From NCBI GenBank assembly GCA_018817125.1, contig JAHIUN010000009.1:1-52868 (forward strand): a DNA stretch of 52,868 nt, given 5' to 3'. This document shows, piece by piece, positions 17,681 through 40,503 of this stretch. This stretch comes from Patescibacteria group bacterium. Lineage in GTDB: Bacteria > Patescibacteriota > Gracilibacteria > UM-FILTER-43-11. Each line of letters opens with the position of its first letter. Position 1 is the first letter of the stretch. The notes beneath the pieces were generated by a model. It did not search any database and had not been told where the DNA came from. It was given only the letters and a program-made list of their open reading frames with translations. The position numbers and the translations under genes are program-made.

Positions 17681-18859
17681 TTATTCCTGCTGAATGATCG
17701 TAAAGTCAAATAATGGCACGGTGGTTTTTGGTGTAATGGTTGTGGTAAGGGATTGTTTGAAATTCCGGTAATATCCGTCGGATTTGATACGAATAAAGGG
17801 ATAGGGAATCAAATCAGAGCTCGAGTCCACTTTGTATTCAAAGTAGGGGATTTCGATCCGATGCATGCTGCCGCCTGAGAACTGCATATGCTCCATCGGT
17901 GCAACGATAAGGAACTCAAAAAGAAGTTTCGAATGAGTGTCGGCTGAGGCACGGTTAATGAAAGCTTCAATCGTTTCAAATTCTCCATTTTCATTGATCC
18001 CGGAATCGAGTTGATCAAGGGTAATCGTATAATCATTTCCCGGTCCGAATTCCTGCTCGCACAATTCTGATTTTTCATTTCCGCTTCCTGCCGCACCGGA
18101 TTCACTCAGACAGCCACGGATGGGATTCAGACTTTTTTCTGCGCCGTCCGACATCTTCCATAAAATCACCGGGTCTTTTTCACTGTCTTCATTCACTTTG
18201 CCGTCACAGTCACTGTCTTCCGGATTTTCGGGGCAGTTTTCAAGGTCTTCCTGTTCAACAGGTTCATCAGGGTCTTCATTGATGTTTGCCTGACTTCCGT
18301 CGAAATCCTGGTCATTATCGATTTTTAATTTGCCCGAGCTGACGATTCCTTCGGGAACTTTAAACGCCATGCTGAAGGTTCCATTGATGGTTTCGATATC
18401 GGTGTCAGAGAACGGCCCCTGGTTGATGGCGTTGGCGGGGAGATCGGTGCGGTAATTCGTATCATTATAAAGATAGATCATCAGTTTCTGATTTGCGTAA
18501 AAACGGCCGGAGAACGTGGTTTCTCCGCTGCTGATGCTTTCCACTTCCCACTCATTGCACCAAAGGGAAGTTCCGGAGTCACATGAGTCGGCATTTATAA
18601 AATTAATGTTGCGCACCCCTTCATCTCCTAAGGGCGGGGTTTCGTAGCCCGCGAAATGGGGAGTGAGTTCATACAGCGCGTCCTCTAAGCCGGCTTCTGC
18701 GGCCAGATAGGCCCGATTACTCGCTTCAATGCGTGAGGCAGACTGAAGTCCTCGTATAATCAGCTGGCTGACTGCGACAGATGAGACCATCAGCAGGGTA
18801 ACGAGTCCGATGACGAGCGGCATTGAAACCCCTTTGCTGTTCAGAATTTTAATGGGCAT
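17681..18859 (-). CDS. Minor pilin, PilX/GspK-like
   Basis: A 392-residue type IV pilin-like protein. The N-terminus SKG|VSMPLVIGLVTLLMV is a prepilin leader with a hydrophobic helix, followed by RAYLAAEAGLEDALYEL, the conserved stretch after the helix in PilX_N/GspK proteins (AE-AG). Like GspK it has no Glu at +5 of the mature chain, as expected for the subunit at the very tip. The ectodomain holds an Asp/Glu-rich, calcium-binding-looking stretch (DCDGKVNEDSEKDP) and several Cys. It is the last of four co-directional pilin genes in FimT-PilV-PilW-PilX order, 12 bp after the PilW-like gene. Together they should form the priming/tip complex of a type IV or competence pilus; the pilus motor genes are not in this window. 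Confidence 0.8.
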   Translation of the reverse strand: MPIKILNSKGVSMPLVIGLVTLLMVSSVAVSQLIIRGLQSASRIEASNRAYLAAEAGLEDALYELTPHFAGYETPPLGDEGVRNINFINADSCDSGTSLWCNEWEVESISSGETTFSGRFYANQKLMIYLYNDTNYRTDLPANAINQGPFSDTDIETINGTFSMAFKVPEGIVSSGKLKIDNDQDFDGSQANINEDPDEPVEQEDLENCPENPEDSDCDGKVNEDSEKDPVILWKMSDGAEKSLNPIRGCLSESGAAGSGNEKSELCEQEFGPGNDYTITLDQLDSGINENGEFETIEAFINRASADTHSKLLFEFLIVAPMEHMQFSGGSMHRIEIPYFEYKVDSSSDLIPYPFIRIKSDGYYRNFKQSLTTTITPKTTVPLFDFTIIQQE

Positions 18860-18871
18860 TAAAAATAATAA

Positions 18872-21800
18872 TTATGGGCAGGTAAACGAAACGCGAAGGT
18901 CCGACAGCCACGGGTTGAATGTGCCGACCGTATCGACCAGTTTTGCTTTCCAGACAAGACTGTTGTCATTCGTTCCGAAATTAACGTTGAAGCCAATGTC
19001 CGCCGCGGTAAGCCAGTCATTGCCTGAACAATCATTCTTACCGCACCAGTTCAGGCCGCCGTCATTGGAAAGCTGCCATAAAACATTTGTCTGGCCTCCT
19101 GATTCTATCACCTTGTCATCGAAGGTGGCGTTCTGTATCTGAGCGGTGAGCACACGAGGACAGCTGGCCGGATTAAACGGAATAGACTCGCTGATGATCT
19201 CGCCTTCAATGGCGCCCGTGTTCACGTTTAGTGTGTAAGTGCCATTCGCGTAGGTGATGGTATCGTTGTCGTAAGACTGAATATAATTTTGTGAGGAAAG
19301 CTGGTCAAAGAAACTTCGCTGATTCCAGTTGAGGCAATAGTAATCATTTATTCCCACCAGTCCGTTGCAGTTGTCATCACTATTCGAACCGTCGCCTGCC
19401 AGGCTGAGTGTGTCATTGCATACCTCGAGGTTTGTATTGAACGGGAAGCCGGTTACATTACAGCATTCCGGTTCAAAGGTCTCATCGGCCAGGGCGGCAA
19501 TCGGGTCGGCTTTTGTGTCCAGGTGGTCAAAGCGCTGATTGCCTGTGGCCGCGCTGATCCGGCAGTTGTTGTTGATGCCGTCGGTGCATTTGACCTGATT
19601 GTTTTCCAGAACATTGGGATGAATACTGGCGTCGGTATCATCGCAGTCATAAGACGGCCGTTCTTCGAGTGAGAAAAGGGTTGCACTGCATTCAGGAGGA
19701 TTCCCTTTATATAGATTCGCTTCCTGAATACCGAAGCCGTCCGCGTCGGTGTCTACACAGCAGGCCGGGTCGCTGTGGTCCCAGCCGTCGTCTCCAATTG
19801 CTACGGCATAACGGGCGTTCACAAAACTGCAGTTATTGTCGATCGGTTCACCGACTAAGGGTGAGCCGACTCCGTATGTCGCGTCATCGCACACTTCGGC
19901 ATTATCCTCATCAGGTAGTCCGTCCGCGTCATTATCAATACCCGGTTTGATATCGATATTTGTGTCATCGCAGTCGATGATGCCATAAGGATCGTAGGAA
20001 TCCGATTTTTTATCTTCTGATTCACAGGTGTTTACGCCGATGGGTCCCATAAAACTGTCATTGTCATTGTCCGGACAGCAGTCGTTGTCGCTGTTGATTC
20101 CTTGATTGCCGTCATAAGTGCTATCACAGTCGTTATCGACTCCGTCATCACAAATCGTTTCCACGCCTGCTTCATACGGCTTGATGCCTTGGCACAGTCC
20201 GCCGGTATCCGTGCATATTTCATCCAGTTCCGTATCGATATCAAAAGGGGCGTCAAAGTCTTCATAATTTCCAAGGAAGTCATACCACACATAGTCATCG
20301 GGATCCGGCGGGTTTTGAGCCAGTACGCCCATTCCCGCGAAGGCCTGGTCGTGCAGGGTATTACTGCAAAGGGTGGTCGTGCAGTCTAAATCGAATTCAT
20401 CAGCGCCGCCTGAGTAGTCTAACAGATTGTAATCACAATCATTGTCCAGGCCGTCAACGCACAGTACGCCCACTTCATCCCCTTCATCCACCAGCCGGTG
20501 GTGTTCGTCGTCATCAGGATTGGTGGCGCGGTCACACAATCCGCCGATATCAATGCAGACCTCATGCAGTTCGTCGGATTCAGTTTTTCCGATCAGATAA
20601 TTCGGATTGTCATAAAAGCGCGGTCCCAGCGCACCATCGGCTGGGTCTTTAATGCCATTGTTACACATGATCTCGATGCAGTTTTGGTCATATTCATCCG
20701 CGCCCTGCCGTAAGGCGATATTCCATTCCGCCACGGAATTGTTTTCATCCAATCCTTCATAAGTCATATAATCCTCCTGGCCTGCGGTCACGATAGTATC
20801 CCACGTGAGTTCAAAATCATAATTACAGTCATTGTCATAGCCGTCTGAACAATTAGATTCATTCAGGGTCAGCGGGCGGAAATAACACGCCCCGCCCACA
20901 TCGATACACTCCTCCCCCGGGTCCAGATAGCCGTTGTTACACAGATGAACCAGACAGTTTGGGTCCGCTTCATCAATCAGGCCGTCTCCGTCATTGTCTA
21001 CGCCGTCATGACAGCGGCGGTTTTTACATCCATCATTCCCGTCGCAGGAATTCATTTCATTTTTTCCGCCTTCGTAGTAAGTCCTTCCCCCTTCCCCGTC
21101 AAATGGGGATTCATGGTCGAGCCCATCAGTTTCCGGCGGATCGATGGGTACCAGCAGTTCTCCTTCCATCCGAACCGGGGTGATGAGACCGCTGACGATA
21201 TTATCAAATGCCTGTTCCTTATATATTTCTTCACTGCATCCCGGCCATACTCCCTGAACACAAGTCTGCTGAGCTCCCGAGACGATTCCCTGATTTTTTG
21301 GGCAGGGCCTGATGTCACCGTTGATGCATTCCTGCAAATTGCATTCCGTGATGATTTCACTCTGCGTACGGGAAGAGATGGTGGATTCCAGAACAATATC
21401 CGGCGTATTTCCCCTGATCTGACTGGCAATACGCGGGCTGGCGCGGATGATTAATTTTACCGTTACATGAGGCTGGATCTGCACATCAGGATCTGCGTAA
21501 GCTTTTCGCGGGTCATCGCTGGGAGTGATGAAAAATTTCAGATCTACCACGTCTAACGAGGAAGGAGTGATGTCTACATAACTGCTGTTTTCCAGGTTGT
21601 CGGGATCGTCACGAATCACTTCCACTTGTCCTGAACAATCTGGAGCAAGGTCACCGGGAGTTACGAAACTGCAGTCAAAACCGTCATCACATACCCACGT
21701 GTCCACCAGGCCGTCTTTTTCTCCCTCATCCCGTCCGCAGTTGAAGCTGTTTTCTCCGTCCGCCAGATGATCGACTCCATAATCTTTACCCACCAGCTTT

Positions 21801-22300
21801 AAAAGCGCGACTTTGCCGATGGGGTTTCCCAGCTCATCGGTGGTTTCAATTCGTCTTAAATACGTCCGATGGATGCCGGCAGGATCGATAAGATAAAGCT
21901 GTTCCTGAATCGGGCTTTCTATCGGGGCGGCTGTATCCGGATTCCGGACACCAGTGCTTTCATCGTCGTAAGTACCGTATTTTCCATCAGGTCCCGCGGA
22001 ATAAAACTGCCGGCTGTACTGGCAGTAGTTCTGGCCATACGTCTCATTAATGCCGGTGCCGAAAAAGTTAGCGGACTGGTTATAATATTCTTCATAATCC
22101 ACACTGCCGTTCCGGATCTCTTTCACAATCCGCTCCATAACAAAGCGGGCTTCTTCATAAACGGTGTTGGCTGCTTTGATGTTCCGGTAAGAATTGAAGA
22201 AATTGGTGTAGATCCCGGTTGCCGTGGTGATTAAAACTCCCAGAATAAACGTGGAGACGAGAAGTTCGGCGATTGTGAAACCCTTCCGATTGAGGCCTAT
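18872..22300 (-). CDS. Giant PilW/GspJ-like minor pilin with MopE-type Cys/Asp repeats
   Basis: About 1142 residues. The prepilin signature NRKG|FTIAELLVSTFILG (Glu5 present) lies upstream of the first in-frame ATG (22138). No ATG, GTG or TTG exists between it and the upstream stop, so the start is probably the near-cognate ATA at 22300 (giving MGLNRKGFTIAELL); initiation at 22138 would lose the whole pilin helix. The ectodomain has at least five copies of C-x-D-G-x-D-N-D-C and DCDDTDASIHP-type motifs, as in MopE/TSP3-like calcium- or copper-binding proteins, with many paired Cys. It fits the PilW position of the operon and would project a rigid metal-binding adhesin from the pilus tip. Its 5' end has been altered by a palindromic repeat. 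Confidence 0.8.
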   Translation of the reverse strand: MGLNRKGFTIAELLVSTFILGVLITTATGIYTNFFNSYRNIKAANTVYEEARFVMERIVKEIRNGSVDYEEYYNQSANFFGTGINETYGQNYCQYSRQFYSAGPDGKYGTYDDESTGVRNPDTAAPIESPIQEQLYLIDPAGIHRTYLRRIETTDELGNPIGKVALLKLVGKDYGVDHLADGENSFNCGRDEGEKDGLVDTWVCDDGFDCSFVTPGDLAPDCSGQVEVIRDDPDNLENSSYVDITPSSLDVVDLKFFITPSDDPRKAYADPDVQIQPHVTVKLIIRASPRIASQIRGNTPDIVLESTISSRTQSEIITECNLQECINGDIRPCPKNQGIVSGAQQTCVQGVWPGCSEEIYKEQAFDNIVSGLITPVRMEGELLVPIDPPETDGLDHESPFDGEGGRTYYEGGKNEMNSCDGNDGCKNRRCHDGVDNDGDGLIDEADPNCLVHLCNNGYLDPGEECIDVGGACYFRPLTLNESNCSDGYDNDCNYDFELTWDTIVTAGQEDYMTYEGLDENNSVAEWNIALRQGADEYDQNCIEIMCNNGIKDPADGALGPRFYDNPNYLIGKTESDELHEVCIDIGGLCDRATNPDDDEHHRLVDEGDEVGVLCVDGLDNDCDYNLLDYSGGADEFDLDCTTTLCSNTLHDQAFAGMGVLAQNPPDPDDYVWYDFLGNYEDFDAPFDIDTELDEICTDTGGLCQGIKPYEAGVETICDDGVDNDCDSTYDGNQGINSDNDCCPDNDNDSFMGPIGVNTCESEDKKSDSYDPYGIIDCDDTNIDIKPGIDNDADGLPDEDNAEVCDDATYGVGSPLVGEPIDNNCSFVNARYAVAIGDDGWDHSDPACCVDTDADGFGIQEANLYKGNPPECSATLFSLEERPSYDCDDTDASIHPNVLENNQVKCTDGINNNCRISAATGNQRFDHLDTKADPIAALADETFEPECCNVTGFPFNTNLEVCNDTLSLAGDGSNSDDNCNGLVGINDYYCLNWNQRSFFDQLSSQNYIQSYDNDTITYANGTYTLNVNTGAIEGEIISESIPFNPASCPRVLTAQIQNATFDDKVIESGGQTNVLWQLSNDGGLNWCGKNDCSGNDWLTAADIGFNVNFGTNDNSLVWKAKLVDTVGTFNPWLSDLRVSFTCP

Positions 22301-22385
22301 TGAAGACCCATTGAGGACCCGATGGATTGAAAATCCGATCCTCAGTCTATTGGGTCTTCGATTGGGCCCTCTATTGGAATATGCC
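22265..22385. repeat. Palindromic element at the 5' end of the PilW-like gene
   Basis: On the minus strand one arm reads TTCCAATAGAGGGCCCAAT-CGAAGACCCAAT and the other is the approximate complement (GGGTCCTCAATGGGTCTTCA...GGCCTC). The first arm matches the element at 45030-45083 in 29 of 31 positions. It occupies the gap between the PilV-like stop and the PilW-like prepilin signature and includes the place where a start codon should be. Confidence 0.8.
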
Positions 22386-22432
22386 TCTGATATATTGTTA
22401 TTTCGCTGTATTGTCGTGTCGTTAAAAAATAT

Positions 22433-23254
22433 TTAGCCGTTCAGCTGTTCGCGTCCTAAATAATCGGTAATATGGGTCGATAGTTTCACGTTATGTTCCA
22501 TCCGGCTGTCCCGCCATATTACCGTCACCGTGACCCGCATGCGGTTCAGACTGCTGGGGACGGCTGCATTAAATTCCCCCGGAGTGCTGATCAGCCCGCC
22601 TCCGTCAGTAAGATACTGGATTTTAACCGTCCGACGGAAAATGGTTTTCTCCGCCTCTATTCCCAATCCGTCATCCTCCTCAATGTAAATATGATTGTAG
22701 GTATCCGTGTCATTCGTATAATTATGGTCCAGATCCGTGTCGGTGAGCGGGTCGATGTCGACCAGATACAGAGTCGCGAAATCGATCCACGCGATTCCAT
22801 CCCACACATAACTTTTGTTTTCACCCTCATGACGAAAGGTATCGCCTTTGGCATGGGATCCAGGAAAATCGGGACCGCTTGAGTCCATATTCAGAATATC
22901 ATTCAGTCGCCAGCGCTCCGTATCCTGTTTATAAATAATATAGTCTCCTGGCAGGATTAGTTCATTGTCAGCGCCGGTGCAGGGGGTGTTTGGGTCGGAT
23001 TGAGGTTCAAAGTTCCAGCATTGCCGGCGTTTGCTGGCAAATTTGAGCCAGTTCGTGTCCCGGATGTTTCGGACGGCCTCAACGCCTTCACGCGCGATGT
23101 TTACCGCTACGACCCGGTTTTTCGCAATGTGCACATTCCCTAATGACGAGCCGATGATCGCGCTCGAAAACATGACTCCAAAAGACAGGATCGTCATCGC
23201 GATGATGGCTTCTAAAATACTTTCTCCCCCCCTGCTTTTTAAAGAAAGTCTCAT
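22433..23254 (-). CDS. Minor pilin, PilV/GspI-like
   Basis: A 273-residue prepilin. The leader SRGG|ESILEAIIAMTILSFG keeps Glu at +5 and the I-type motif LEAIIAMTIL, typical of PilV/GspI subunits. It is followed by NIAREGVEAVRNIRDTNWL, a conserved region of this family. The globular part is acidic with calcium-loop-like DTDLDHNYTNDTDTY and ends in a beta-rich segment with the pattern of type IV pilus modification proteins (RMRVTVTVIWRD). It starts 5 bp after the FimT-like gene, so translation is probably coupled. Its stop TAA is in the same frame as the following PilW-like reading frame, so readthrough would fuse the two. Confidence 0.85.
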   Translation of the reverse strand: MRLSLKSRGGESILEAIIAMTILSFGVMFSSAIIGSSLGNVHIAKNRVVAVNIAREGVEAVRNIRDTNWLKFASKRRQCWNFEPQSDPNTPCTGADNELILPGDYIIYKQDTERWRLNDILNMDSSGPDFPGSHAKGDTFRHEGENKSYVWDGIAWIDFATLYLVDIDPLTDTDLDHNYTNDTDTYNHIYIEEDDGLGIEAEKTIFRRTVKIQYLTDGGGLISTPGEFNAAVPSSLNRMRVTVTVIWRDSRMEHNVKLSTHITDYLGREQLNG

Positions 23255-23259
23255 AAAAT

Positions 23260-24051
23260 TTACTCGTTACATTCGTCGGCACTGTATTCAAGAGCCGGGA
23301 ATGTTTTGATACGGTTAATGCGGATGAATTGGCATTTTTTAGCCGAATCTTCCGGGGCGGCAGGGTTAAAAAACTTAAGTCCCAATTCTTCCATCGAAGT
23401 TCCGCTTCCTAAAATATTATCACCGATGAACGTGTCGGCCAGGGGCGGGGTGTAGATCACCACCGCTTCTGTGGCAGTCGGCCCTTCGGGTTCTTCTGTG
23501 TCCCATTTCCATTCGTCTTCAAAATAGAATGAATGGAAGTGAAGCAGATTGCCGGGAATTTCAAATGTTTTGATGATTTTATCGTTTCCGTCAAATCGTT
23601 TGGCGCTGTTTTCATTGTCATCGTTCTGATAGTTTTCATAATCCGGTCCAGATCCCAGGTTGGCAAATAAGGTGAAAGTGGAATTGGTATTAGGGTCCGG
23701 TTCGAGTTTTATATATACTCCGTATCCGTCTGCCGGGATCAGATCCTGATTCAGTGCTTCTATACGAACCCCTCTGCTCGTACTGGCAAAATTGCGCGCG
23801 TCAGTCAGTATTCCTGTCATCTGGATGAAAGCTTCATTGAATTCAAAACGATCCCGTTCCTGAAAATAAATCCGTCCCCCGATGCCCATCAGGATGCCGG
23901 CGATGATCGTTACAATGAACATTTCCGCGATCGTAAAACCCTTCTTATCGTGATTATTAAGATGATTAAGACTATAACGACTATTAGGAGAATGTTTTCT
24001 CCATATTCTGCTTATCCCAATAGTCGTAATAATCTTAAAAATCACAATCAT
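23260..24051 (-). CDS. Minor pilin, FimT/GspH-like
   Basis: A 263-residue prepilin. The signature DKKG|FTIAEMFIVTIIAGILMGIG (Glu5 present) is followed by FQERDRFEFNEAFIQMTGILTDARNFASTSRGV, which fits the FimT/GspH pattern of a helix leading to a region that samples surface loops. The leader before the cleavage site is about 38 residues, far longer than the usual 5-10, and it is translated from a palindromic intergenic-type repeat (23945-24056). The ATG at 24051 lies 1 bp after the pgi stop. This is the first gene of the four-pilin set. A shorter start is not available because no other ATG precedes the signature in frame except inside the repeat (MWRK-like). Confidence 0.8.
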   Translation of the reverse strand: MIVIFKIITTIGISRIWRKHSPNSRYSLNHLNNHDKKGFTIAEMFIVTIIAGILMGIGGRIYFQERDRFEFNEAFIQMTGILTDARNFASTSRGVRIEALNQDLIPADGYGVYIKLEPDPNTNSTFTLFANLGSGPDYENYQNDDNENSAKRFDGNDKIIKTFEIPGNLLHFHSFYFEDEWKWDTEEPEGPTATEAVVIYTPPLADTFIGDNILGSGTSMEELGLKFFNPAAPEDSAKKCQFIRINRIKTFPALEYSADECNE

Positions 24052-24056
24052 CTTAA
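23945..24056. repeat. Palindrome translated as the leader of the FimT-like prepilin
   Basis: Minus-strand arm AAGATGATTGTGATTTTTAAG...ACGACTATT pairs with the plus-strand arm TGATTATTAAGATGATTAAG...ACGACTATT; about 40 bp per arm around a loop containing GGATAAGCAGAATATGG. It overlaps the end of pgi and the first ~36 codons of the prepilin gene. Confidence 0.8.
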
Positions 24057-26004: not shown

Positions 26005-26049
26005 GAGGGTTTGATTAAGTGGTTATTATTGTAACCTTAAAAGTGCGAT

Positions 26050-26126
26050 AACAGCAATAGTTTAGAGCTCGAGCAATAGCATGTAGCTTAAACTATTGCC
26101 ATTGCTCTTTTCTCTTGCCATTGCCG
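26050..26126. repeat. AACAGCAATAG-family palindromic element, copy 1
   Basis: Begins AACAGCAATAGTTTAGAGC and is built of CAATAG/CTATTG words. Its reverse complement matches the element at 40422-40501 along nearly the full ~77 bp. It lies between the divergent ruvA and M23 genes, just upstream of the M23 promoter. Confidence 0.85.
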
Positions 26127-26136
26127 GTATTTAGGG

Positions 26137-26165
26137 TGGCTTTTTGTCTCTAGAAATGGTATAAT
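26137..26165 (+). promoter_or_regulatory. Promoter of the M23 peptidase gene
   Basis: TGGCTT at 26137-26142, 17 bp, TATAAT at 26160-26165 in the context ATGGTATAATA (extended -10); ATG 22 bp further. Confidence 0.7.
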
Positions 26166-26187
26166 ATAGTGATCTATTTGAATTCTG

Positions 26188-36956: not shown

Positions 36957-37013
36957 GGTTTTTGTTTATTTAATCTATATATTATAGCATTTTTAGAGAA
37001 AAAAATCCACCCT

Positions 37014-37087
37014 AAATAGTGGGTAGGTTGTAGTGAATAGTAAGTAGCCAAAGACTACAAACTACAACCTACTCACTATTCACTATT
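37014..37087. repeat. Palindrome built of AATAGTG/GTAG words
   Basis: The left arm AATAGTGGGTAGGTTGTAGTGAATAGTAAGTAG pairs with CTACAAACTACAACCTACTCACTATTCACTATT. It sits in the gap downstream of valS and upstream of the 87-residue gene on the same strand. Confidence 0.9.
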
Positions 37088-40421: not shown

Positions 40422-40501
40422 AACAGCAATAGCAAGAGAAAAGAGTCTATAGCAATAGTTTAAACTATATTCTATTGCTCGGGCTCTAAACTATTGCTGT
40501 T
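40422..40501. repeat. AACAGCAATAG-family palindromic element, copy 2
   Basis: Reads AACAGCAATAGCAAGAGAAA at the left and CTCTAAACTATTGCTGTT at the right. It is the inverted-orientation homologue of 26050-26126, from which it differs by a handful of substitutions and short gaps, and is itself an imperfect palindrome. It ends 2 bp before the PrsW stop codon. Confidence 0.9.
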
Positions 40502-40503
40502 AT

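Follow-up and report, generated by a model that had tools for sequence, protein, structure and literature searches.

The PilW-like type IV prepilin gene described below carries no ATG, GTG or TTG codon between the stop codon of its upstream neighbour and its prepilin motif, and it may well be translated from a near-cognate AUA codon lying 5′ of a palindromic repeat, which would give the pilin a long, cleaved leader made in part of repeats; this reading is built on the comparison of sequences. The host is a tiny uncultured Peregrinibacteria species, with Candidatus Peregrinibacteria as the closest named relatives. Its genome assembly is fragmented (1.03 Mb, 17 contigs, 88.7% complete), and the window, by which we mean the whole stretch of 52868 nucleotides analysed, is contig 15.

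A prepilin frame without a standard start codon

The features of the locus are as follows.

18872–22432, minus strand: PilW-like type IV prepilin, an open frame without a standard start before the motif (N_methyl Pfam, dN/dS)
22265–22285, minus strand: prepilin motif K-G/FTIAE, expected cleavage after the Gly at 22282–22280
22286–22377, minus strand: 92-nt member of a dispersed palindromic repeat, in frame within the leader
22393–22424, minus strand: roughly heptameric repeat (TAACGACACGACAATACAGCGAAATAACAATA)
22433–22435, minus strand: TAA stop of the pilV-like gene, whose frame is shared with the PilW-like gene
22433–23254, minus strand: PilV-like minor pilin, ATG start (TIGR02523 PilV, E 7.3e-05, under the cut-off)
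23260–24051, minus strand: GspG/GspH-like prepilin, ATG start, leader lengthened by repeats
17681–18859, minus strand: PilX-like protein, the adjoining downstream gene (PilX_N at E 0.5 only)

Between the upstream stop and the stop that ends it, the pilin frame spans 1186 codons (22432–18872). On the minus strand the sequence reads, in order, TAA (22435–22433) and then 50 sense codons up to the Gly within K-GFTIAELLVSTFILG. The motif itself, G/FTIAELLVSTFILG, therefore stands fifty codons past the upstream TAA, and ATG, GTG or TTG occurs at none of those codons, which on the minus-strand sequence bears out the original prediction, as does the finding that the upstream pilV-like gene lies in the pilin frame. 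The earliest in-frame standard start, the ATG at 22138–22136, is inside the mature protein, so that a start there would lose the transmembrane segment. Four in-frame ATA codons are found in the leader, at 22432–22430, 22411–22409, 22393–22391 and 22300–22298; the last had been pointed out before and is indeed present, and the other three had been left out.

The frame has the signature of a type IV prepilin, a cleavage and methylation motif, K-G/FTIAELLVSTFILGVLITTATGIY, followed by a hydrophobic segment. The N_methyl family of Pfam matches the N-terminal part at 8.3e-06, and the whole protein scores 21.1 bits against a cut-off of 21.2 bits. Searches of Pfam at E values up to 5 and of NCBIfam at E values up to 1 brought up no PilW family model, and the label ‘PilW-like’ reflects position and motif only. 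The gene resembles the PilV-PilW-PilX minor pilins in its GFTIAEL prepilin motif, its transmembrane start and the order of PilV-like and PilX-like genes around it, but differs from them in its length of 1186 codons, in an acidic disulfide-repeat tail, in the missing match to a PilW model and in the 50-codon leader region without a standard start.

Conservation of the gene and the probable site of the ancestral start

In the sister species (G004, locus L013), the pilin gene is found at the same place and encodes a protein that is 84% identical. Over 1136 codons the comparison gives a dN/dS of 0.073 (dN 0.087, dS 1.19), similar to the value of 0.094 for the pilV-like gene, and when the amino-acid changes were polarized with three outgroups, 44 fell on this branch and 43 on that of the sister species. 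Purifying selection on the pilin gene is strong, and the gene is not decaying; one that had been silenced long ago would look different. The palindrome, too, is shared in position with the sister species, which in addition has a TTG as the second codon past the upstream stop. The earlier suggestion that insertion of the repeat silenced the gene is not supported, in view of this shared insertion beside a usable TTG and of the dN/dS value. The corresponding codon here is the following.

22427–22429, minus strand: TTT codon; TTG in G004 (good context, score 3.74 under the model described below), ATG in the relative G013 (TAA ATT ATG)

In eight of about fourteen relatives the gene begins no more than a few bases from the upstream stop, and by comparison among these genomes the ancestral pilin start was probably at or near 22429–22427, just after the upstream stop. 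All four leader ATAs are kept in the sister species, though it also has the TTG. In relatives further removed the gene begins with ATG or TTG, or has a different leader and no start, and G005 and G011 also have no standard start in the PilW-like gene. Among the relatives, we did not find the same near-cognate codon as the sole conserved start.

The true start could still be a TTG at 22429–22427, as in the sister species, the TTT being a miscalled base or a variant carried by a minority strain. The TTG with its good context in G004, the ATG of G013, the fragmented assembly and the position of the site within a run of six T all favour such an error or variant, and the difference from the sister species falls exactly at the expected TTG codon, which this explanation would account for equally well. 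However, two neighbouring codons differ (TTG CTT there, TTT TTT here), as ordinary divergence at a mean identity of 80.6% predicts, and no error or variant is required, since G005 and G011 likewise have start-less PilW-like genes. We therefore consider a miscalled or variant codon, the main alternative to our reading, somewhat unlikely. Decidedly unlikely, in our judgement, is a very recent loss of the start that has left the pilin silent or on the way to a pseudogene: the TTG of the sister species is TTT here and a strong replacement is absent, but the frame is stop-free over 1186 codons, and its low dN/dS and balanced changes (44 versus 43) speak against decay, with the proviso that too recent a loss leaves no marks. 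In addition, four start-less prepilin genes in each of G005 and G011 are too many to be recent losses by chance.

Candidate start codons

Candidate starts were ranked with a start-context model derived from starts shared between the two species, one set of starts serving for both training and scoring. In this model real starts have a median score of 4.2 and internal ATGs of −5.0. The four ATA codons score as follows.

22409–22411, minus strand: ATA, best-scoring candidate (score 1.86, higher than 96% of internal ATGs; ΔG −0.3; 43-codon leader)
22391–22393, minus strand: ATA, second candidate (score 0.92 here and 3.77 in G004; 37-codon leader)
22430–22432, minus strand: ATA right after the upstream stop, a possible termination–reinitiation site (score −7.9)
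22298–22300, minus strand: ATA proposed earlier (score −7.0, within a hairpin)

The scores of the first two resemble those of real starts but do not stand out among them, corresponding to their 28th and 21st percentiles. Both lie 5′ of the palindrome and are the top-ranked candidates predicted by context and folding, so that from either of them the palindrome would be translated within the leader. The ATA at 22432–22430 was attractive, since relatives start near that stop, yet its context is poor and we rejected it. We also discarded the AGAGG at 22388–22384 as an SD (Shine–Dalgarno) signal for the pilin, as this genome hardly uses SD motifs.

In the reading that we favour, short dispersed repeats of two kinds would have remodelled the leader, with the standard start codon gone as a result. 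Initiation would then take place at the AUA at 22411–22409, or else at that at 22393–22391, independently of an SD motif and on unstructured, A-rich RNA, perhaps with the assistance of ribosomes terminating on the adjoining pilV-like gene. We infer that expression from such a codon would be low, which would fit a minor pilin, that the ribosome would translate across the in-frame palindrome and that prepilin peptidase would cut off the leader of 37–43 residues. Repeats would be tolerated in this leader because it is removed from the mature pilin.

Apparent near-cognate starts elsewhere in the genus

Upstream of 472 starts shared between the two species, G is down to 5–15%, A is enriched and there are hardly any SD motifs, so that starts are apparently chosen by open, A-rich sequence. 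We screened 616 non-overlapping orthologous gene pairs of this genome and the sister species for start-less genes and inspected the results. The automatic screen flagged 18 genes here and 15 in the sister species, mostly extended-frame or shadow-frame artefacts. After inspection, 5 of the 616 pairs remained in which one genome or both truly had no standard start, and two of the five are prepilin genes: the list comprises infC, the gene at C2:37074, the present pilin gene, a prepilin gene of the sister species (G004 C49:1126–3147) and the gene at C11:53814.

Near-cognate initiation at infC is a textbook case in bacteria. The infC gene (C2:28275–28817; L045:8275–8817, minus strand) has no ATG, GTG or TTG in either species, and in both an ATA, evidently the start, stands five codons ahead of the IF3_N domain, with context scores of 4.7 and 6.6. 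A short conserved frame, MVELNQTPSFLTLILPL followed by a stop codon, ends overlapping this ATA (ATAA). The recovery of infC serves as a positive control of the screen, because it is a known near-cognate gene and S. aureus infC uses AUA. AUA starts have been described in S. aureus at infC, ccpN and, in one lineage, citZ (PMC13009471), and reporter fusions of cvfC1 (AUU), ccpN (AUA) and citZ (AUA) gave approx. 10% of the expression from AUG in poor medium (PMC13009471); the S. aureus AUA and AUU starts depend on extended SD motifs, of which there are none here. The gene at C2:37074–38540 starts with ATG here, and its ortholog in the sister species (C41:73481–74950) has ATA at the same codon, with a dN/dS of 0.10. 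The product looks secreted, and there is no other standard start near that of the sister-species ortholog. To judge from these orthologs, the genus appears to use an AUA start in at least two genes besides the pilin. The gene at C11:53814–54551 (L163), with a possible ATC start, was not accepted as support, as it has an SD motif and a dS of 0.28 and looks foreign; it is a lipoprotein-like gene with a strong SD motif six bases ahead of the ATC and no standard start.

The pilin resembles the known near-cognate genes (infC with AUU or AUA, E. coli pcnB with AUU, S. aureus ccpN with AUA and cvfC1 with AUU) in being a conserved functional gene without AUG, GUG or UUG; infC itself has AUA here too, and low, IF3-sensitive expression would be expected of the pilin. 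It differs from them in having no SD motif and several in-frame candidate ATAs in place of one established, conserved codon, in encoding a surface pilin, in the UUG of the sister species and in being known here from sequence. If confirmed, this would be a lineage without Shine–Dalgarno initiation that uses AUA beyond infC.

Repeats in the leader

The repeat had been described as a dispersed palindrome occupying the whole region. The dispersal holds, with about 11 sites across the 1.03 Mb genome, but the palindrome is confined to 22377–22286, and 22424–22393 is the roughly heptameric repeat; it matches, at 26 of 32 positions, the repeat that follows the gene preceding a second start-poor prepilin (contig C2). 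A folding energy of −45.6 kcal/mol (z = −3.7) was obtained for the palindrome, and none of 200 shuffled sequences folded as well; the copies show only weak covariation, at 2 of 26 pairs (term +0.5), and an Rfam search gave no family over threshold, only a chance miRNA match. As eight of the 11 copies have no counterpart at the same site in the sister species, the family moves or turns over fast. Besides lying in frame in the pilin gene, the palindrome overlaps long frames at C2:13017, C5:70598 and C3:10341, so that it is tolerated in frame in protein genes, as the Rickettsia palindromic elements are. The window holds other dispersed inverted repeats, at 26048–26102 and 40449–40503 (91% complementary) and at 26128–26173 and 36973–37018 (87% complementary).

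The pilin copy is identical with that of the sister species at 95 of 97 nt, against a mean of 80.6% over 755 kb aligned, a similarity that just 38 segments reach across the alignment as a whole. The leader has a dS of 0.15 versus 1.19 in the gene; 5′ of the palindrome it shows three silent and six replacement codon differences, and thus no apparent constraint at the protein level. A function of the palindrome cannot be argued from its conservation, as another shared copy (C13:57092), apparently untranslated and located before an ATG, is also well kept (110 of 121), which makes the conservation not specific to the pilin gene.

Near-cognate initiation as such, part of the original prediction, has gained from infC, from the ortholog of C2:37074 and from the selection on the gene. 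The particular codon proposed, the ATA at 22300–22298 within the palindrome, has fared less well. A start there would give a short leader, (M)GLNRKG, of a length ordinary for the family, with a hairpin controlling access, and the palindrome is nearly unchanged from the sister species even at silent sites. In addition, a mini-frame, ATG GGT CTT CAA TAG, overlaps the codon (ATAG) and is kept in both species, recalling the ATAA of infC. However, this ATA falls in the worst context class (−7.0 here, −9.0 in the sister species), below 98% of real starts, and lies in stable structure (ΔG −13.5 over 65 nt here, −16.3 in the sister species), whereas real starts sit in open RNA; both it and the mini-frame ATG are near the family consensus of the palindrome and hence not special to the pilin. 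We regard this start as very doubtful, and we found no evidence for the switch that had been proposed. Readthrough of the upstream TAA, or other recoding to a PilV–PilW fusion, is highly improbable: the two genes share a frame here and in G004, G003, G013, G007 and G009, but the upstream stop is in another frame in seven relatives (G001, G005, G006, G008, G012, G014 and G016), about half, and processing of a prepilin signal would not be expected where it lies internally in a fusion.

The palindrome in the leader has a partial parallel in Rickettsia, where palindromes are inserted in frame in protein genes (PMC10969869). Like those elements, the present repeat is a dispersed palindrome of approx. 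100 nt that is both intergenic and in frame within protein genes; it differs in its insertion into a leader that is presumably cut off, beside heptamer-like repeats and where the start codon is missing. In-frame palindromes and near-cognate starts are each known in kind; to find the two together in the leader of a prepilin, in a lineage that initiates independently of SD motifs, is a new variation on them.

Prepilin leaders across the family

In the fetched stretches of 18 genomes of the family we collected 143 distinct prepilin N-termini, of which 118 have an ATG, 15 only GTG or TTG, and 10 none of these. The start-less prepilins are clustered, with four each in G005 and G011, and many of their leaders are made of short repeats. 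The proportion of 10/143 is an excess over the approx. 5/1200 among other genes of the two fully read genomes (Fisher p 3e-7), a comparison of rates obtained by different methods in which start-less prepilins are the easier to recognize. The eight clustered genes are found in L016 and L099 (G011) and in L095, L096 and L129 (G005), and several share the leader ...LKSKIANLKSKIKGGFT, made up of an AAATCTA-like repeat. An out-of-frame ATG in G011 (MVQTKNKKQKK...) raised the idea of a programmed frameshift, which was rejected, as a stop intervenes.

Tentatively, we suggest that repeats may repeatedly overwrite prepilin leaders and their starts, and that an SD-independent ribosome may initiate on the AUA, AUU or AUC that the repeats supply. 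If this were true, prepilin leaders would serve as a repeat reservoir and would naturally give rise to non-AUG genes. Gene finders that need ATG, GTG or TTG would trim the signal and transmembrane segment from the present pilin and others like it, and the pili of these uncultured bacteria are consequently mis-annotated. If confirmed, the removable leader would be a tolerant site where mobile repeats become protein with the mature product unharmed.

Growth of the leader through repeats is also seen in prepilin genes that have an ATG start. In the GspG/GspH-like prepilin at 23260–24051 the leader has 37 codons, whereas that of the sister species has 14 or fewer; the start of the gene (23940–24051 region) lies within another inverted repeat (23957–24056). 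The prepilin at C11:40348 (L103) has a leader of 42 codons here versus five (MKNKK) in the sister species, through an in-frame expansion directly after the start. A second PilW-like gene has, in this genome (C2:54327–56369, L046), only a poorly placed ATG inside the upstream gene and, in the sister species (C49:1126–3147, L106), no standard start; its leader contains the same heptamer-like repeat as that of the pilin gene, including an ATA.
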